DNA from: Leptolyngbya sp. FACHB-60
GTDB taxonomy: Bacteria; Cyanobacteriota; Cyanobacteriia; Phormidesmidales; Phormidesmidaceae
DNA length: 64,000 bases
NCBI RefSeq assembly: GCF_014695775.1
Contig: NZ_JACJOX010000020.1
Location: 124,001-188,000, forward strand
Direction: 5' to 3'
Shown: piece after piece, positions 23,079 through 39,703 of the stretch
How the letters are laid out: each line of letters opens with the position of its first letter
How positions within the stretch are numbered: the stretch's first letter is position 1
Translations under genes and position numbers: made by a program
Notes under the pieces: model-generated
What the model was told of the DNA's origin: nothing
Database searches by the model: none
The model's input: only the letters and a program-made list of their open reading frames with translations

Positions 23079-23498
23079 CTACCGAGACGAACCAATATCA
23101 CGGTAGAGGCCTTTACGGCGCTGTCGTTGCCGGATGGGCAAGCCAGTACCCACCAGCCCCATCAGCCCTAGCGTCGCCTTGGGGCTGGGTCGTTGAGATA
23201 CCGCTTCAGCTCGAGCTGCGGGCTGATGGGGCTGCACCGACTGGCGATGCTCAAGCCCTGCCCAAGAAAGCAGCCCTGCGACGATGAAGGTGCTGAGGTG
23301 ATTGAGAGCTTTCTCAGGAATGGGCAGATCGTAGTGGCTTTTGAAGGTTCTCGCCAAAAACCAGAAGAACAAGCCAACCCCAATCAACAGCGCAATCACG
23401 TTGATTGTAGGAGTGTGGGCAAAGGTGTAAATGGCACCGCCCATCGGGCCATCTATCGCCCCTTCAAACTCTTCGTAGGTAGTAAATGGGCTTGACAT
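23079..23498 (-). CDS. small membrane protein downstream of amt
   Basis: The 139-residue protein has an acidic N-terminal segment (TTYEEFEGAIDGPMGG) and two membrane helices (about residues 30-51 and 66-82). Its long basic, Pro/Gln/Arg-rich tail looks disordered. It starts 45 bases after amt on the same strand and has GAGGAG before its ATG, so translation is credible and co-transcription likely. I know no domain for it. A role as an Amt-associated or ammonium-related accessory is inferred from position only. Confidence 0.72.
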   Translation of the reverse strand: MSSPFTTYEEFEGAIDGPMGGAIYTFAHTPTINVIALLIGVGLFFWFLARTFKSHYDLPIPEKALNHLSTFIVAGLLSWAGLEHRQSVQPHQPAARAEAVSQRPSPKATLGLMGLVGTGLPIRQRQRRKGLYRDIGSSR

Positions 23499-23543: not shown

Positions 23544-24941
23544 CTAGGGTTTGGGGGCAACCTGGGGCATCGGCACAACGGGAATATCCAAATTGCCATT
23601 TTTCTCAGGCAGGATAGAGTATTCTGGATAGCCAGCGATGCCGTAGTCAGATAAGTCTAGGCCGGTGATTTCTTGAGCTTCAGAAATACGCAGTAGGCCC
23701 ATCTTTTTCAGCACTAAGCTAACCCCATAGCCAGGCAAAAAGCCCAGCAGTAGCGCACAAATTGCTGCACCTATAATCTGAGCACCAAAATTAATGGCAG
23801 GAACACCCTCGGGTTGAGGGTAGCCAGCGGCAACAATACCCACTAAGAGCGAGCCCAGTACGCCGCAGTAGCCGTGCACTGCAAAGGCGCCTACAGCATC
23901 GTCAATGCCAGCTTTTTCGATCGCCCTGCCCACAAACGGCATGGTAAAAGCACCCAAAAAGGCCAGCAAAATCACAATCTGCGGGCTGTAGAGATCGAGC
24001 CCAGCTCCGGAGGTAATAATCCCCGCCAGGCCACCTGAAATGGTGTAGAAGGGGTCGCCCTTAGAGCCCATATAGGCCCCGACCAGACCAGCCGACAGGG
24101 CCAGGGTGGTGTTTACGCCTAGCGAAGCCAGGGTCATGGGGGTGCCATAGATGGTGATCTCGCTCGTCTGCCCTGGAACAAAGATGACGCAGGCGGCCAA
24201 AAAGGCGTAGAACCCAACGAAAATCAGCATGAGCCCCACCATGGTGAGGGGCAAGTTGTGGGGCATAATCACCCGTGGCTTGCCCTGGGCATCAAACTTG
24301 CCGATGCGGGGGCCGAGGTTAATCACCACCCCGAGGGCAAAGAAGCCCGCCACACCATGGAGCACCGCAGCGCAGCCAAAGTCGTGATAGCCCAGCTGAG
24401 TAAAGAACCAACCGTAAGGGCTCCAGCCCCAAGCGGCGGCTACCACCCAGGTAAACGAGCCCAAAATAATGGCCAGAATAGAGTAAGCCCCAATCTGAAT
24501 CCGCTCAATCACCGCCCCTGAAAGGATGGAGGCCGTGGTCATGGCAAACAGAGCAAAGGCAAACCAGAACACCCCGGTCAGGTTGTCGGCAATGTTGGGG
24601 CCAAGCGCCGGGGACCAAGGATAGGAAGCCTGCACCAGCGCTAGCACATCGCCCACCGTGCCCTCGGAGGCTGGGTCAGTCCATGGGCCGACAATGCCCC
24701 CTTGGAAGGGAAACAGGGGAAAGGCGTTGTAAACCCACCAGCCGAAGTAGAAGAACGTCAGACCTACCAAGGCTAAGGTCATTAGGTTTTTGACCATAGT
24801 AGCCAGAACGTTTTTGGACCGTGCCGCACCGCCCTCATAGGCCAAAAAGCCCACGTGAATTAACAGCATTAGAACAGAGGCCCAATAGTAGTAAGACTCT
24901 GATACAAAAGTTGCTAAAAACTCTTGTGATTCAGGAGACAT
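23544..24941 (-). CDS. amt: ammonium transporter
   Basis: This inner-membrane channel takes up ammonium. The 465 residues hold eleven hydrophobic helices. The pore twin histidines are present: first in HDFGCAAVLHGVAGFFALG (with the conserved upstream Asp), second in AFAVHGYCGVLGS. The C-terminal cytoplasmic tail (EAQEITGLDLSDYGIAGYPE) carries the GlnK/PII-interaction motif seen in Amt/Mep proteins. No glnK or glnB is adjacent. Its upstream gap of about 240 bases contains GTA-N7-TAC, one base short of a canonical NtcA site. Confidence 0.96.
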   Translation of the reverse strand: MSPESQEFLATFVSESYYYWASVLMLLIHVGFLAYEGGAARSKNVLATMVKNLMTLALVGLTFFYFGWWVYNAFPLFPFQGGIVGPWTDPASEGTVGDVLALVQASYPWSPALGPNIADNLTGVFWFAFALFAMTTASILSGAVIERIQIGAYSILAIILGSFTWVVAAAWGWSPYGWFFTQLGYHDFGCAAVLHGVAGFFALGVVINLGPRIGKFDAQGKPRVIMPHNLPLTMVGLMLIFVGFYAFLAACVIFVPGQTSEITIYGTPMTLASLGVNTTLALSAGLVGAYMGSKGDPFYTISGGLAGIITSGAGLDLYSPQIVILLAFLGAFTMPFVGRAIEKAGIDDAVGAFAVHGYCGVLGSLLVGIVAAGYPQPEGVPAINFGAQIIGAAICALLLGFLPGYGVSLVLKKMGLLRISEAQEITGLDLSDYGIAGYPEYSILPEKNGNLDIPVVPMPQVAPKP

Positions 24942-25184: not shown

Positions 25185-25700
25185 TTAGGTATGAGCTGTA
25201 GTCAGCGCTACTGAACCACCGCTGAACGATCGAATTAGGCGGCAAAACTTTTCGCTTTGGGACTTAGCAAAGTGCAGGTCTAAGGCAGGTTGACCGGCCA
25301 CGGGGTGATGCCAAATGAGGACGGGCAGAGCCGAAATTTGGGCGGGCACAGCACAGTGCAGAGGCAGCCCGTGCAGCCGATGGGGAGCTCTGACGGTGGC
25401 CTGGGCCGCTATCGTGGGGAACTGTTCAGCGGGTAGCGTGATGGCCCCCATCCAGCTCAACTGCTTGACCCACACCTGAAGCTGTAGAGCCGCCACAATT
25501 TGGTCGAGGGGACCGAGGTAGGTGATGCGAAAGCTGCGATCGCACAGTCTCAGCACCGCACAGGGCAGTCTCGCCAGCGTGGTTTCCATCGACTGAAAAG
25601 GCGCTAGATGATCGACCGCCTCGCCAAATAAGGTTCTCGCTGCAACCAGGCCATCGGCTCCCGCTAGATCCCAAGGAGAGGAAACCGTGAATTCATTCAT
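25185..25700 (-). CDS. small protein overlapping the DUF1989-GcvT gene; SoxG-like candidate
   Basis: The 171-residue soluble protein starts inside the end of the upstream gene (four-base ATGA overlap), a sign of translational coupling. It contains short beta-rich segments such as RLPCAVLRLCDRSFRITYLGP. Its size and its position after a GcvT-type folate domain recall the gamma subunit (SoxG) of sarcosine oxidases, but I see no decisive motif. A partner subunit for the upstream fusion protein is the simplest reading. Confidence 0.6.
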   Translation of the reverse strand: MNEFTVSSPWDLAGADGLVAARTLFGEAVDHLAPFQSMETTLARLPCAVLRLCDRSFRITYLGPLDQIVAALQLQVWVKQLSWMGAITLPAEQFPTIAAQATVRAPHRLHGLPLHCAVPAQISALPVLIWHHPVAGQPALDLHFAKSQSEKFCRLIRSFSGGSVALTTAHT

Positions 25701-27520
25701 ACCCGCACCCGACTCTTGGTTGGATCAAACGCCGCTAGCGGCCCCACCGTTGCTTTCACCCTGCGCTTAAGACCATCCAGCAGACCGACCTCGACCACCA
25801 GCCCAGGCTCAGCAAACTCAGGGACGACCTGGGCCATAGCAATGCTGGTATTGAGGATGGGTGAAAATGTGGCGCTGGTGATCTGCCCCACCCGCCACCA
25901 TTCCCCAGCGGCGAAAATAGGCTGGCCGTGGGTTGCCACCTCTGCCCCCTCTAGCACTAGCCCCACCGCCACCCGAGGGGGATGGCGACGAATGGCCTCT
26001 AGGGCAGCTTTGCCGATCAAGTCAGGCTTTTTCAGCGCCACGGCCCAGCCAATACCCGCCTGGTAGGGCGAGGTTAAATCGTCAAACTCGTGGCCCAGGG
26101 CCAGCAATCCGGCTTCGATGCGGGCGCGATCGAGGGCTTTCATACCCAGGGGCAGCAGTCCTACTGGTGCTCCGGCTTGCGTCAAAACATCCCACAGTGC
26201 TGCACCATCCTGGGGATGTACGAACAGCTCATAGCCCAGTTCGCCGGTGTAGCCGGTACGCGAAATCAGCACCGGAATGCCCTGGATGTGAGCTTCTAGA
26301 AAACCGAAGTAAGCCAGGAATTCGACCTCGGGCACTAGGGTTTTGAGCACCTGACGGGAGAGCGGGCCTTGGAGGGCAAGGTTGTGAAGCCTCACTGATT
26401 CCACCGTCACATGCCAACCTCGATCGTTCGCAATGCGCTGTAGCCAATCGCCGTCGGTGTCGCAGTTGCCCACGTAGCGGTAGCGGGTGGGGCCAAAGCA
26501 AAACACAATACCGTCATCGACAATGCCACCGTGAGGGGTGAGCAAGCAGCCGTAGGCCCCCTGCCCCGCTGCTAATTTCTCCAGATTGCGAGAAAAGGCG
26601 TATTGCAGCAAGGCAAAGGCATCGGCTCCAGCAATGTCAAACTTGCGCAGGGCCGAGAGATCCATTAGTGCTGCCCGCTGGCGCAGTGCCCAATACTCAG
26701 CCTGATCACCCTGGTGGGCAAAGGTTTGGGGCACCCAAAAGCCGTTGTACTCTGTCAAATCGTCGGTCAGCTGATGAATGCTGGGGGTAAAGGCGCTGGC
26801 CTGGGTCATTCGCAGGGGCAAGGTTGCCACCCGTCGCCCCATGGCCCGTTCAAAGGTTTGCCCTGCCGCGTAGATGCGTAGGTGAATGGGCGTCGGCTGC
26901 CAGCCGTTAGCGGGGTCAATGTCGTCGGGGCAGGCGGAACTGGCGCAGAGCAAATCTTGGTGAGCCAGCAGCAGTACGTAGTCGCCAGGGCGAGAGAGGG
27001 GTTCTGCGAAGGCGATCGCACCGTGACCATCCACACTGGTGTTGTAGAAAAAGTTGAGGGCGGGCCAGCCGGGGCGGGGCGCAATGCCGTAGGGGGCCAG
27101 CACCCGGTTAAAGTTGTCGCTACAGCTGGGGTGACCGGGATAGCCGGCATCTTCGTAGTAGCGAGCGGTGCAGGCGAGCAAAAAACTGTCGTGGCGACCG
27201 CAGGTGTCTTGAATCACCTCTGTCAACGGCTGCATCGATTGCGAAAAGAGCTTGCTGGGCAGCCCCGCCTGGGGAACGGCCAACCCGGTGAGCGTTCGAG
27301 TCACTGTGGCATCGAGCGGGTCGCTGTGGTGCTCGCCACCAAAGGCCAAAAAGTCGGAGCACTGGGAGCCAGCCACATCAATGATTTGAATGAATTGGCC
27401 AGCGGTGACCGAGTAGGCGATCGCTTCCCCCGGCGCAATACGATACTCGACTACCACTTTCCCCAGCGGCGGCGGAATGTCGGTGTGGGCTATGGGCGGA
27501 AGGGGCAGTGCAGTTGTCAT
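25697..27520 (-). CDS. DUF1989-GcvT fusion: urea-carboxylase-associated-like domain fused to folate aminomethyltransferase-like domain
   Basis: The first 230 or so residues match the DUF1989 (urea carboxylase-associated) fold. They include IIDVAGSQCSDFLAF and GHPSCSDNFNRVL, whose Cys and His are probable metal ligands. Characterised DUF1989 proteins include the carboxyguanidine deiminase subunits. The remaining 380 residues are a GcvT-type domain (RAALMDLSALRKFDIAGADA, SRTGYTGELGYELFV, ALDRARIEAGLLALGHEFD, FSPILNTSIAMAQV) that normally uses tetrahydrofolate as one-carbon acceptor. The frame is open to 27634. ATG 27520 gives the expected N-terminus and leaves room for promoters towards the divergent DUF29 gene. 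Reaction unknown. Confidence 0.85.
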   Translation of the reverse strand: MTTALPLPPIAHTDIPPPLGKVVVEYRIAPGEAIAYSVTAGQFIQIIDVAGSQCSDFLAFGGEHHSDPLDATVTRTLTGLAVPQAGLPSKLFSQSMQPLTEVIQDTCGRHDSFLLACTARYYEDAGYPGHPSCSDNFNRVLAPYGIAPRPGWPALNFFYNTSVDGHGAIAFAEPLSRPGDYVLLLAHQDLLCASSACPDDIDPANGWQPTPIHLRIYAAGQTFERAMGRRVATLPLRMTQASAFTPSIHQLTDDLTEYNGFWVPQTFAHQGDQAEYWALRQRAALMDLSALRKFDIAGADAFALLQYAFSRNLEKLAAGQGAYGCLLTPHGGIVDDGIVFCFGPTRYRYVGNCDTDGDWLQRIANDRGWHVTVESVRLHNLALQGPLSRQVLKTLVPEVEFLAYFGFLEAHIQGIPVLISRTGYTGELGYELFVHPQDGAALWDVLTQAGAPVGLLPLGMKALDRARIEAGLLALGHEFDDLTSPYQAGIGWAVALKKPDLIGKAALEAIRRHPPRVAVGLVLEGAEVATHGQPIFAAGEWWRVGQITSATFSPILNTSIAMAQVVPEFAEPGLVVEVGLLDGLKRRVKATVGPLAAFDPTKSRVRV

Positions 27521-27652
27521 AACAAGATTGCACCAGAGGCTCTGGCTCGCCGCAGTGGTGCAGGCTACCGAACTAGCCATCTCTGGGCTAAGATTGGCCA
27601 GCCTGCTTTTGGCTACACTTGAGTCACACGCCATGCGCTAGGCAAAGCCGCC

Positions 27653-35027: not shown

Positions 35028-36956
35028 TTAATTACAGCAGCTGTGTTTGCTAGCCGCAGGCGGCACGTCGTTGGCCGGGTTTTGGTCAAAGAAGTTCAGC
35101 GGCTTGAGCATAAAGCCAATGTAGGCCACGGGCATGATCGGCCAGTCTTCGGCGCGGGGCACGTGGCTGTGGGCAAAGGTGTGCCACACCACCAGGTCGG
35201 TGTTGGCCACGGGGCGATTGCCCGCTGTCCACTTGGGCAAACCCTCACCACCGGGGCTTTGGTTGGGGTAGTCGCCCGCCGGGAATCTCTCGTCGGAGCT
35301 ATAGGGCGTGACCCACAGGTGCTTAGTCATGTAGGTGGCGCGCTTCATGACGCTGGCGTTGGGGCTGGCCAGGGGCAGGGTATTCTCACCGGGAATCAGC
35401 TTGTAGGCCGTGGGGTAGCCCATGGCGTTGGTTTCTGTCGGGTTTACGATTTTCCAGTAGCGGCCCTTCATGGGGTCGATCAGGCGCTGGGCGGCGAGTT
35501 CGGTGTCGAGCAGCGTCGATTTGGCGTAGAAGGCATTGCCATAGGGGTTGAGTTCGTCCTCTTCAGGCTCAATATCCACTTCGTAAACAGAATTTTGCAG
35601 GCCATCCACACACATGTCGAGCCGCACGTTAAAGATGTGCTGGTGCACCGGGGCGTAGAGCTGGGGGGCGACCAGAGTGCCATACTTGGGCACCTCGCCG
35701 GGGGGGAATGCCGCCGTGCTGATCATGCCCGTCAGCTTGACCTCGTACTGAATGCTGCCATCTTGGTAGAAGTACCAGTAGAAGCCGTACTCATAGTTGC
35801 CTACGGTGGCGATGAAGGAGACGACTAACCGGCGCGACCTGCGCACCTCGGTCTCTTCCGTCCGCCAGTCCACGTGCTTCCAGAGAATGCCAAAGTCTTC
35901 TTCGTGCAGGCAGACAGCATTTTTGATCTGGGCTACCTCGCCGCGCGAGTTGGTCATGAAGGCGTCGAAGTAGTAGATTTCGCCCAGGCAGTCGCAGCCC
36001 AAAGTCAAAGAATTCGCCAGTGAGCCAATGCCGTATTCGCCCACGTCGAAGGCGTTTTTGCGGTAGTGGTGGGGCTGGGGGTCACCGTAGGGCACGGTCA
36101 TTTCGGCCAGCGAGGCGCGATAGAGAATGGGCCGCTCTTCGCCACCGTCGGTGTAGTTGACGGTGTAGAGCACCAGCCCTTCACGGGGGGTAAAGCCGAT
36201 GCGCATTTTCCACTTTTGCCAGTGAATTTCGTGACCGCTAACCGAGAAGCTGGGGCCTTCAGGCTGCACAATTTCGAGCGGCTTGAGGTCGGTGCGAAAG
36301 GCTTTGACGTACTCCTGGGAGTAGTTGGCCGACTGGGGCGGCAGGGGCACCACGCCATGGTCTTCGACCCGGATCACCTCCATTTTGTTGAGGTCAACGA
36401 CGGGAATGACGCCTTCGATGGGGCGGGCGTAGCCGTTGTCGGTGGGGTTGGCCCGCACCCAGCAGAGGGCGCGGGAGAGGCGCACACCGTCTTCATCCTC
36501 AAGGCCATAGTGGCCTGCTGACCAAGGGTCAACCATCACCAAGCTGGGGTCGGTGATGCCACGTTTGGCGATCGCCTCAATAAACTCCGGGCAGGCTTTG
36601 ACCGCATTCTCACACTCAATAAACTCATCCAGCATGATCGGCGGCTGCACGTCGGGGACGTGTTTCCAGGAGGTGACGGTGCCCTCGGTGAGAGACACGA
36701 TCGCCTCATAGGTCTGGGCCGTGGCATTGTCGAGCAGGATGGCAAAGGCTTCCCGCACAATGTCATCCCCCGGCTTAAAGCCCATTACCGTTTCTTTCGC
36801 CGGTTCGTTGAGGGTGACGGTGGCAAAGCGGGTCGTCGCACCTAAGGATTTTTGCTCGCGCAGAATGGCGACAGCGGCGGCAATTTCTTCGGGTGTTAGT
36901 GGTTCTAGGGGGTGGGCAACAGCGATCGCAGTGGGACGTTCTTGGGCGATAGTCAT
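35028..36956 (-). CDS. copper amine oxidase (primary-amine oxidase)
   Basis: It oxidises primary amines to aldehydes with release of ammonia and hydrogen peroxide, using copper and a self-made topaquinone. The 642 residues have two N-terminal small domains and the large catalytic domain. The topaquinone precursor is Tyr388 in VGNYEY. The likely catalytic base is Asp304 in FDVGEYGIG. Copper ligands are His438 and His440 (HQHIFNVRLDM), and the third is in HVPRAEDWP near residue 606. No signal peptide is visible, so it is probably cytoplasmic. It is the last gene of a same-strand series with an ACAD-like and a PhyH-like gene. Confidence 0.95.
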   Translation of the reverse strand: MTIAQERPTAIAVAHPLEPLTPEEIAAAVAILREQKSLGATTRFATVTLNEPAKETVMGFKPGDDIVREAFAILLDNATAQTYEAIVSLTEGTVTSWKHVPDVQPPIMLDEFIECENAVKACPEFIEAIAKRGITDPSLVMVDPWSAGHYGLEDEDGVRLSRALCWVRANPTDNGYARPIEGVIPVVDLNKMEVIRVEDHGVVPLPPQSANYSQEYVKAFRTDLKPLEIVQPEGPSFSVSGHEIHWQKWKMRIGFTPREGLVLYTVNYTDGGEERPILYRASLAEMTVPYGDPQPHHYRKNAFDVGEYGIGSLANSLTLGCDCLGEIYYFDAFMTNSRGEVAQIKNAVCLHEEDFGILWKHVDWRTEETEVRRSRRLVVSFIATVGNYEYGFYWYFYQDGSIQYEVKLTGMISTAAFPPGEVPKYGTLVAPQLYAPVHQHIFNVRLDMCVDGLQNSVYEVDIEPEEDELNPYGNAFYAKSTLLDTELAAQRLIDPMKGRYWKIVNPTETNAMGYPTAYKLIPGENTLPLASPNASVMKRATYMTKHLWVTPYSSDERFPAGDYPNQSPGGEGLPKWTAGNRPVANTDLVVWHTFAHSHVPRAEDWPIMPVAYIGFMLKPLNFFDQNPANDVPPAASKHSCCN

Positions 36957-37045: not shown

Positions 37046-37202
37046 GTAGGGTGGGCATTGCCCACCATTGCTCTGGGCTACAAATCGTTTAACGCCTGGG
37101 CATTGTTCTCGACGGGACAGCTGATCAGAGGCGATCGCGGCTTTTTGGCCAACACTCTGGGGGTTTTGGGCCGGGATGAGTGGTGGGCGGTGCCCACCCT
37201 AC
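37046..37202. mobile_element. MITE-like element with GTAGGG...CCCTAC inverted ends, copy 1
   Basis: The left end GTAGGGTGGGCATTGCCCAC (37046-37065, then C) and its inverted counterpart (37182-37202) enclose 115 bases with no coding capacity. Each end is itself a GGTGGGCA-type palindrome. The right end supplies the TAG stop codon of the acyl-CoA dehydrogenase gene (37199-37201). No target duplication is obvious. Confidence 0.6.
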
Positions 37203-38614
37203 GCGGCGGCGACGGGAACAGGCACTTCCTCCTCTAAATCAGCCAGCAGCGACTCGGCGAGCCTGCGCTTTTCGTCGGGGTCGAGCTTCTTCAGCTCGTT
37301 GTGCAGCACGCGCTCGTTCACCGACTGGTTCCAGTAGTCGAGCGAGTCGAAGCCCAGCAGGGCCGCTTTGCCGACGAACTGGCGTAGCACCTCGTTGGTT
37401 GGCCCCATCACCCAGCCCGCTTTGCCATCACGCAGGTAGCGCTCGATTTCCATGTCTTTCTTAAAGCCGGAGCCACCGCAGGCGTGGAGCATTTTGTCGC
37501 AGACATGGGCCACATTCTTGGCCGCCTCAAACTTGATTTGCCAGTACCAGTGCAGATAGGCCGAGCGCGGCAGGGCGCTGGTATCGGCGTGGATGGCCCA
37601 ATCGCAGCCGTTGGTGAGCTGATCCATCAATTGCCCCATGGAAAAGGTGAACATGCGGCAGGCGCTGGTGTCGATAATCGCCTCACCAAAGTAGTCCTGA
37701 ATTGTTGGGTAATCCGCGACGCGTATGCCCACATCGACGTGCTTTTTGCGGGTGACGTGGGCCTTGGCAATGTCGATCGCTCCCAAGGCAATCCCATTCC
37801 AGCAGGCCGACGAGCAGAGCAAAAAGAACGGATCAACGATTTCGTCGTTAGAGGTGCTGCCATCGCCCTCGGGGCCAACCATGCGATCGCGCGGCACGGT
37901 CACCCCATCCACCAGCAGGGTGCCAGACTGGTTGCCGCGTAGGCCCAAGGCATCCCACTTGTGGGGCTCAGCCTGCACCTCGTCGGCATAGATCAAAAAG
38001 CATGACAGATCGGCATAGTTGCCGTCGAAGTGGGGGCTGGTGGTCTGCACAATGTACCAGTCGGCAAACCCCGCTGAGGTCGTCCACGACGCCTTTTTGT
38101 TCACCTGCCAGCCATCAGGAGTCGCCGTGGCCCTGGAAGACACAGGGTACCAGAAGTGCGAGCCAGTCTCGGGGTCAGAGTAGGACAGGGTGCCGATTAG
38201 CACCTCGCTATCGAGCCGCTTCAGCAAGCTTTGCAGTTCTGGGCTGTTGTGAGCGCGAAATAGGGCTGCTGCCACCGCCCCCAGGTGCATGGTGTAGCAC
38301 ATCGCCGTGCTGGGGCAGCCGTAGCGGGCGATGGTTTCGACCACCATGGCGGCGCAGATGTGGTTTTCACCCAGGCCACCCCATTCTTTAGGCACAAACA
38401 GGCTGAGCAACCCCAGGGATGCCAGCGCCTCGAAGTTTTTGCGCGGGTAGATCAAGTTGCGATCGGAGGCGATCGCATTGGGTCGCAGCACCGCCGCGCA
38501 CAGCTCGATCAGTTTGGCCTGGAGCGCTTGCTGCTCGGGGGTGAGCAACCACTGGGGGTCAAAGTCTTCAGTTAAACCGGTGAAAGGCATTCCGTTCCAG
38601 GTTTTGGTAGACAT
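37199..38614 (-). CDS. acyl-CoA dehydrogenase-like flavoprotein
   Basis: The 471 residues show the acyl-CoA dehydrogenase fold. An N-terminal helical domain is followed by the FAD-binding middle region (IGTLSYSDPETGSHF, WTTSAGFADWYIVQTT, ALGLRGNQSGTLLVDGVTVP). The C-terminal helical domain contains HACGGSGFKKDMEIERYLRD. Members oxidise acyl-CoA esters, but relatives act on nitroalkanes, sulfur heterocycles or amines. Cyanobacteria generally lack beta-oxidation and no thiolase or hydratase is nearby, so a non-classical substrate is likely. The stop codon lies inside a MITE-like end. Its last residues (VPVPVAAA) may be element-derived. Confidence 0.9.
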   Translation of the reverse strand: MSTKTWNGMPFTGLTEDFDPQWLLTPEQQALQAKLIELCAAVLRPNAIASDRNLIYPRKNFEALASLGLLSLFVPKEWGGLGENHICAAMVVETIARYGCPSTAMCYTMHLGAVAAALFRAHNSPELQSLLKRLDSEVLIGTLSYSDPETGSHFWYPVSSRATATPDGWQVNKKASWTTSAGFADWYIVQTTSPHFDGNYADLSCFLIYADEVQAEPHKWDALGLRGNQSGTLLVDGVTVPRDRMVGPEGDGSTSNDEIVDPFFLLCSSACWNGIALGAIDIAKAHVTRKKHVDVGIRVADYPTIQDYFGEAIIDTSACRMFTFSMGQLMDQLTNGCDWAIHADTSALPRSAYLHWYWQIKFEAAKNVAHVCDKMLHACGGSGFKKDMEIERYLRDGKAGWVMGPTNEVLRQFVGKAALLGFDSLDYWNQSVNERVLHNELKKLDPDEKRRLAESLLADLEEEVPVPVAAA

Positions 38615-38733: not shown

Positions 38734-39633
38734 TCAAGCGATCGCCATTGCGCCCTGCCCCAGCGGGTCTTCGCAATAGTCCACCAGGTGGGGGCTGCGG
38801 TAGCCGTCGTTGCGCCAGAGAATGGGGAAAAAGCTCTCATCCATTTCGGTTTCGCCGACGCGCTTGTAGCGGCCGTAGATGTAGCCCTGGGGGTTGGTGG
38901 GGTGAAACTGGGCCGAGGCGGGGATGGTGTGCAGACCAATGCTGCGGAACATGCCCTCGGTGCGGGTGGTGGGGCCGAGGCCGTGCCAGGTGCGTCCGTG
39001 GTGGAAGGCGCAGCCGCCAGCGGGCACATCGACGACAACCAGCTCCGGTTCAGGAACGCCAGCGTTTTCGGCGGCTTGTAGCATGGCCCAGCGATAGTCT
39101 TTGGTCGGGGCGTGGAACTCGCCCGCAACGCTGGAGAGTGGCCACTTGTGGGAGCCTTTGGCGTAGACTAGGGTGCCATCGGCGGCGGTGGCCCGATCCA
39201 GCGCCACCCAGCAGGTCATCATGGCAGCGGGTTCGAGATAGTCAATGTAGGCACCGTCTTGGTGCATGGCGATCGCCTGGGCCCCGGGCGGCTTCATCCA
39301 CAGGCTGTCTTGGCCAATGCGGGCCCCCTCCCACCCAGCCAGCGTGGCGCTGAGGCGGCCAATTTCTGAGGAGAGCACCAGGCTGGCGATGGTGCAATCG
39401 CACTTCCAGCCGTTGCAGATCTCGCGGGTAATGTCGGGTAGGCTCATGCGCGGTCGCCAATGCCACTCATCGGGGTAAATGCCCGTTTCAAAATCGCCGT
39501 GAAACATGGGTTCTAAACGATTAGCTAGGCGTTCGGCAAAGTCTGCGGGCAGAAAGTTTTCCAGAATCAAAAAGCCGTCATTCTGGAACTGCTGAATTTG
39601 GGCAGGGGTGAGCTGAATGGGTTGATAGTCCAT
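38734..39633 (-). CDS. phytanoyl-CoA dioxygenase (PhyH) family oxygenase
   Basis: This Fe(II)/2-oxoglutarate-dependent hydroxylase has about 299 residues from ATG 39633. The frame is open to 39678, but MDYQPIQLTPAQIQQFQNDGFLIL is the normal family start. The iron-binding facial triad is visible: MHQDGAYIDY gives His and Asp, and HHGRTWHGLGPT gives the distal His. An Arg follows in TRTEGMFRSIGLH for 2-oxoglutarate. Substrates of bacterial members range from ectoine to acyl-peptides and cannot be read from sequence. It is first in the PhyH-ACAD-amine oxidase series. Confidence 0.92.
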   Translation of the reverse strand: MDYQPIQLTPAQIQQFQNDGFLILENFLPADFAERLANRLEPMFHGDFETGIYPDEWHWRPRMSLPDITREICNGWKCDCTIASLVLSSEIGRLSATLAGWEGARIGQDSLWMKPPGAQAIAMHQDGAYIDYLEPAAMMTCWVALDRATAADGTLVYAKGSHKWPLSSVAGEFHAPTKDYRWAMLQAAENAGVPEPELVVVDVPAGGCAFHHGRTWHGLGPTTRTEGMFRSIGLHTIPASAQFHPTNPQGYIYGRYKRVGETEMDESFFPILWRNDGYRSPHLVDYCEDPLGQGAMAIA

Positions 39634-39703
39634 TGCAAACAGAGTCTCTGGGTGCAGGAAACACAGGGAGCGGGGCAAGTCTGGTCTACAGAAAATTGTC
39701 GAT

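Follow-up and report, generated by a model that had tools for sequence, protein, structure and literature searches.

A Tdm-type protein and its small GcvT-fold partner in cyanobacteria: a predicted two-subunit TMAO demethylase

Trimethylamine N-oxide (TMAO), the fish-odor compound, is demethylated by heterotrophic bacteria of marine and soil habitats. The demethylase of Methylocella silvestris, Tdm, carries a DUF1989 domain followed by a GcvT-type half; Zn is bound at C263, C279, and C343, Fe lies near H276 and D346, Phe and Leu occupy two positions at which tetrahydrofolate is contacted by Tyr and Arg (101 and 223 by E. coli numbering), and the N-terminal domain has been called ubiquitous (PMC12560246). 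Proteins of the carboxyguanidine-deiminase type, UAAP1 and UAAP2, share the DUF1989 fold with a Cys zinc site but have no GcvT domain. Among the open PubMed Central papers searched, none links Tdm to cyanobacteria, and microalgae are said to lack, as a rule, the ability to use methylamines (PMC7574528). A phototroph with a TMAO demethylation route could draw nitrogen directly from methylated amines. Here we describe a tdm-like gene pair in Leptolyngbya sp. FACHB-60, on a 64,000-nucleotide stretch of DNA that we call the window. The Tdm enzyme type is already known; the cyanobacterial form differs in the loss of a domain, in a putative small subunit, and in an accompanying flavoprotein.

The large protein and its relation to Tdm

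The gene pair and the adjacent transporter gene occupy the following window positions.

25697-27520, minus strand: tdmA-like large gene (607 aa; DUF1989 [metal], GcvT, and GcvT C-terminal barrel)
26948-27442, minus strand: DUF1989 domain of the large gene (residues 27-191)
25724-26761, minus strand: GcvT folate-type domain (residues 254-493) and C-terminal barrel (516-599)
25697-25700, minus strand: ATGA stop/start overlap (4 bp) of the large and small genes, read as translational coupling
25185-25700, minus strand: small partner gene (171 aa; degenerate GcvT fold, SoxG-like; putative gamma subunit)
23544-24941, minus strand: amt, ammonium transporter (Pfam)

The large gene is a 607-codon open frame that starts with an ATG at 27520 and ends at 25697. 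Translation from another in-frame ATG, at 27634, would lengthen the product to 645 aa; the start at 27520 agrees with those of relatives. A sequence-only reading of this DNA had described one gene that combines a DUF1989 domain of metal-binding type with a domain resembling folate aminomethyltransferases, a small gene overlapping its end by four bases, and an ammonium transporter gene downstream. An HMM search of both halves bore out the fusion, with DUF1989 (residues 27-191; 1e-47), GCV_T (254-493; 4e-65), and GCV_T_C (516-599; 1e-14) all matched by Pfam in one chain; the small gene does share 4 bases with the end of the large gene, and amt does lie downstream, 243 bp beyond the small gene on the same strand. 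Linkage of amt and tdm recurs in 15 clade loci in several differing arrangements. A gene for a hypothetical protein of 139 aa follows amt (23079-23498, minus strand) and is kept by amt in 14 tdm loci.

What had looked like a new domain combination is the known Tdm architecture, since the best family and structure matches of the large protein are both Tdm. The best NCBIfam match, NF053776 (Tdm), scored 781.8 bits (E = 8.6e-235) and fell below the curated cutoff of 1100, partly because the N-terminal domain is missing. The best PDB match was likewise Tdm (9q59/9q5l/9q5a; E = 2e-174), with window residues 13-606 aligned in the same DUF1989-GcvT order and an identity of ~45% across 594 residues. 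When the large subunit was searched by fold, structures of GcvT and DUF1989 came back but 9q59 did not, apparently because the structure library ends in April 2026.

The alignment to 9q59 places window residues C117, C133, and C197 at the Zn ligands C263, C279, and C343 of Tdm (C117 and C133 inside DUF1989, C197 just past it), H130 at H276, and D56, D199, and D200 at D198, D345, and D346. When conservation was scored on 25 cyanobacterial-clade and 54 other sequences, C117, C133, C197, H130, and D56 were invariant in all 25 clade members and D200 was present in 24. The claim of a metal-binding DUF1989 domain thus survives, its Cys/His ligands being kept on alignment to Tdm. The folate site gave a split outcome: a catalytic-type Asp, D336, is retained in the GcvT half, but both folate contacts are substituted, with F340 and L463 where GcvT of E. 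coli has Tyr101 and Arg223. Because these are the two substitutions reported for Tdm (PMC12560246), an obligatory coupling to folate is unsupported. As a separate observation, Cys stands at the equivalent of Tdm Asp345 in a sub-clade whose Tdm proteins are otherwise full length (L046, L051, L054, and 17 more loci), and that position is apparently Ala in PDB 9q5a.

The same earlier reading had suggested new chemistry, namely, a carboxyguanidine- or urea-type deiminase or hydrolase step coupled to one-carbon transfer to tetrahydrofolate. DUF1989 does also occur in UAAP1/2, and the large protein matches TIGR03424 at 103.5 bits. However, that score is far under the Tdm match (104 bits for UAAP2 versus 782 for NF053776, rounded) and under the UAAP2 cutoff of 284.7, the other UAAP profile gave 73.2 bits against a cutoff of 205.95, and the DUF1989 domain does not stand alone in this protein. 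Moreover, the entire fusion aligns to Tdm, two folate contacts are substituted, and the annotated neighborhoods showed no guanidine or urea carboxylase genes. A deiminase or hydrolase of this kind is therefore very improbable, and the DUF1989-GcvT order is that of an already known TMAO demethylase. Judged from its sequence, the large protein probably has a Tdm-type function, and we infer that TMAO is its substrate.

A scan of genome contigs yielded 80 relatives of the large protein, and in a tree, a branch with full support set the cyanobacterial sequences, together with one from Armatimonadota (L029), apart from all others. The ~150-aa N-terminal DUF1989-like domain of Tdm is absent from the window protein and from its cyanobacterial relatives, which measure ~600-620 aa from their likely starts (607 aa in the window, compared to 763 model positions for Tdm). 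The Armatimonadota protein has an N-terminal region of the size of this domain and weakly resembling it. Zoogloea Tdm is also without the domain, and there the flavin reductase gene stops ~100 bp before the tdm match; since the domain is missing in Zoogloea as well, it is not universal in Tdm.

The small partner protein

Wherever a clade locus extends far enough past tdm, the small gene follows (25/25 loci), and so the pairing is not due to chance. The two genes overlap by 4 bp at 18 of these loci (the window counted) and by 1 bp at 3, lie close by at 3, and are separated by one inserted gene in L025. The small gene is frameshifted in L013, a poorly covered metagenome contig, and in L017. An alignment of 19 members contains 14 invariant residues. 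Clade homologues thus keep both the fusion and the small partner described in the earlier reading.

Neither Pfam nor NCBIfam has a match to the small protein. With all 19 members, Pfam gave no SoxG match and 3 weak GCV_T matches (best E, 0.002), and a PDB sequence search with the partner profile returned chance matches only. Comparison of profiles by hhalign matched 157 columns of the partner profile to the GcvT half of Tdm (E = 1e-7; probability, 94.3) versus probabilities of 0.1 for the Tdm N-terminal domain and 0.4 for DUF1989. The alignment to GcvT skips the HGGxxDD loop, the bearer of the GcvT catalytic Asp. An AlphaFold model of the small protein (pLDDT, 92.8) was used in a Foldseek search, which found GcvT, dimethylglycine dehydrogenase (DMGDH), and the sarcosine oxidase gamma subunit SoxG (1vrq_C; E = 4.9e-5; TM, 0.63/0.56). 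As a PDB search with the MgdD protein of L030 returned nothing, the link between the partner and SoxG rests on the fold search. Both proteins are stand-alone, short GcvT-type folds (171 versus 195 in length) whose genes accompany a GcvT-domain large subunit. They differ in that there is no match at the sequence level, only the TM values given above, and in that the window partner goes with a DUF1989-GcvT protein and not with a flavin dehydrogenase. We read the small protein as a non-catalytic GcvT-fold subunit that is most like SoxG and that is likely a structural subunit of the Tdm-type enzyme.

Cyanobacterial Tdm is without its N-terminal domain and a separate small gene is present, a situation that simple gene fission, with the partner as the split-off domain, would also produce. 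The hhalign probabilities (0.1 for the N-terminal domain, 94.3 for GcvT) and the Armatimonadota locus, which has both an N-terminal region and a partner, make fission hardly tenable, and on the same two grounds we rejected the partner as a relocated N-terminal domain.

Taking the small protein as a GcvT-fold subunit, we infer an alpha-gamma TMAO demethylase. Its large subunit would be Tdm minus the N-terminal DUF1989-like domain and would convert TMAO to dimethylamine (DMA) and formaldehyde at the Zn(Cys3)/Fe site in DUF1989, with the GcvT-type domain receiving or releasing the formaldehyde. The degenerate small subunit would be co-translated with the large one via the 4-bp overlap and would presumably pack against the GcvT half in the manner of SoxG against SoxA. 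The physiological role would be the acquisition of nitrogen from methylated amines. Such a subunit would provide a handle on the role of the GcvT half of Tdm, a question left by the Tdm paper.

Across 386 cyanobacterial genomes, the partner was found in 4, of which 3 have an intact tdm gene and 1 (L099) has the partner fused to a remnant of a deleted tdm gene. In this remnant (L099:1486-1965), the GcvT C-terminal part is joined directly to the partner; the genome is without trimethylamine monooxygenase (Tmm) and without the flavoprotein described below.

Methylamine genes near the pair and in the window genome

Tmm genes that exceed the curated cutoff adjoin the pair in two cyanobacterial loci, L025 and L005, and a third Tmm gene, truncated by the end of the locus, adjoins it in L004. 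Type III glutamine synthetase genes of the GmaS type occur in 7 clade loci; L030 has mgsABC-like genes of the glutamate synthase type and a soxA-like mgd subunit, L023 and L029 have relatives of TMAO permease, and L029 has DMA-monooxygenase-like genes. The published methylamine pathway comprises the same steps as these genes, and an ammonium transporter is part of the scheme (PMC5520151). The sister-locus neighbors agree with the use of methylamines for nitrogen, and together with amt they give the pair the nitrogen context that the position of the transporter had suggested.

The window genome has two GmaS-type genes above the cutoff. Neither Tmm nor a HODM-type DMA monooxygenase turned up in searches of this genome; thus, DMA has no visible fate there. 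The MgsC-like protein of L030 gave only partial matches in the window genome, at 33-34% identity. Three further genes of the window bear on the pathway or are linked to tdm elsewhere.

35028-36956, minus strand: copper primary-amine oxidase (NCBIfam NF008559, 994 bits; cutoff, 651); tdm-linked in 6 loci
37199-38614, minus strand: acyl-CoA-dehydrogenase-like flavoprotein; catalytic Glu absent (G404); predicted group D amine N-monooxygenase
38734-39678, minus strand: PhyH-type 2-oxoglutarate dioxygenase (Pfam); tdm-linked in 7 loci

An acyl-CoA-dehydrogenase-like flavoprotein in tdm loci

The flavoprotein gene lies ~10 kb from the tdm pair, and its product is 56-94% identical across tdm loci of cyanobacteria, Armatimonadota, Zoogloea, Labrys, and Pseudonocardia. 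The position of the catalytic residue E376 of MCAD is Gly in 19/19 aligned relatives (IERYLRDGKAGWVMGPTNE), and Phe or Trp stands at the position, placed by eye, of the catalytic Glu of isovaleryl-CoA dehydrogenase (IVD). In Rhizobiales (e.g., L040-L042), a permease gene is followed in order by DMA monooxygenase genes, Tmm, and tdm; Zoogloea has the same order with the flavoprotein gene in the Tmm slot, followed by a flavin reductase gene (PF01613). An HpaC-like flavin reductase gene is located next to the flavoprotein gene, between it and tdm, in 8 Zoogloea loci (L032-L035, L037, L038, L043, and L052) and 3 Labrys loci (L057, L063, and L074); no cyanobacterial locus has one adjoining the flavoprotein gene.

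All 19 cyanobacterial tdm genomes encode either the flavoprotein without Tmm (14 genomes) or Tmm without the flavoprotein (5 genomes), never both or neither (Fisher, 8.6e-5, uncorrected for kinship), and 3 or more changes of state are needed on the tdm tree. Among the 386 cyanobacterial genomes, the flavoprotein occurs only in that of the window; Tmm is present in both remaining tdm genomes and in one genome without tdm. The exchange is not absolute, since three Labrys genomes and two Pseudonocardia genomes (L039 and L047) hold both.

Group D monooxygenases, some of which are N-hydroxylases, have the same fold and work with reductases of this kind (PMC6165268); the flavoprotein is therefore predicted to be a trimethylamine (TMA) N-oxygenase. 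With group D members such as isobutylamine N-hydroxylase and DnmZ, in which N-oxygenation is known, it shares the acyl-CoA-dehydrogenase fold and, in Zoogloea and Labrys, a putative HpaC-like reductase partner; it differs in that its closest sequence matches are ordinary acyl-CoA dehydrogenases (8i4p, 3e-30), with DnmZ at only 5e-11, and its substrate is a prediction. With Tmm (NF058570) it shares the slot upstream of tdm and, by prediction, the reaction, but Tmm is a single-component FMO whose fold is unrelated to an acyl-CoA-dehydrogenase fold served by a separate flavin reductase. We give an about even chance that the flavoprotein is a two-component flavin monooxygenase that replaces Tmm in making TMAO. 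Oxidation of DMA or another amine of the same pathway, instead of TMAO formation, is a real possibility that we put somewhat below even: the Labrys and Pseudonocardia genomes above hold both proteins, and DMA would otherwise have no visible fate in the window genome. Yet in Zoogloea and L029, the flavoprotein coexists with DMA-monooxygenase-like genes while filling the Tmm slot, and it is exclusive with Tmm in 19/19 cyanobacterial genomes.

This exclusivity also bears on whether the Tdm-type enzyme has drifted to another substrate (for example, a different tertiary amine N-oxide or an N-methyl compound such as dimethylglycine or one akin to it), with the small subunit marking a change of specificity. 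The score under the Tdm cutoff, the lost N-terminal domain, residues peculiar to the clade (N352 and C325 among them), and a window genome without Tmm are what such drift might leave. However, every metal-site residue is retained, three cyanobacterial loci have Tmm beside the pair and others have GmaS or Mgs genes, and exactly one of Tmm and the flavoprotein is found per genome (19/19). We consider drift unlikely.

For a TMAO demethylase, the substrate would be imported or made from TMA by Tmm or, in the window organism, by the flavin monooxygenase encoded at 37199-38614. A bolder and rather doubtful proposal is a distinct route from TMA to nitrogen, in which a new acyl-CoA-dehydrogenase-fold monooxygenase would stand in for Tmm and the SoxG-like subunit of an alpha-gamma Tdm would close the GcvT pocket, so that formaldehyde would be passed to tetrahydrofolate rather than released. 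If the prediction for the flavoprotein is true, it would be an unrecognized TMA oxygenase that escapes marker-gene surveys relying on tmm.

Two other genes recur near tdm. A MOSC_N-MOSC protein (YcbX/mARC type) is encoded between the flavoprotein gene and tdm in L023 (L023:7082-7885), L017, L019, L020, and L027; mARC relatives reduce N-oxygenated amines, and a reduction of this type is possibly relevant to TMAO at these loci. An SBP_bac_3 protein gene is linked to tdm in L025 (L025:7083-7832), L004 (L004:703-1440), and four more loci, with a possible role of its product in amine binding or sensing, and in L004 it directly precedes tdm.
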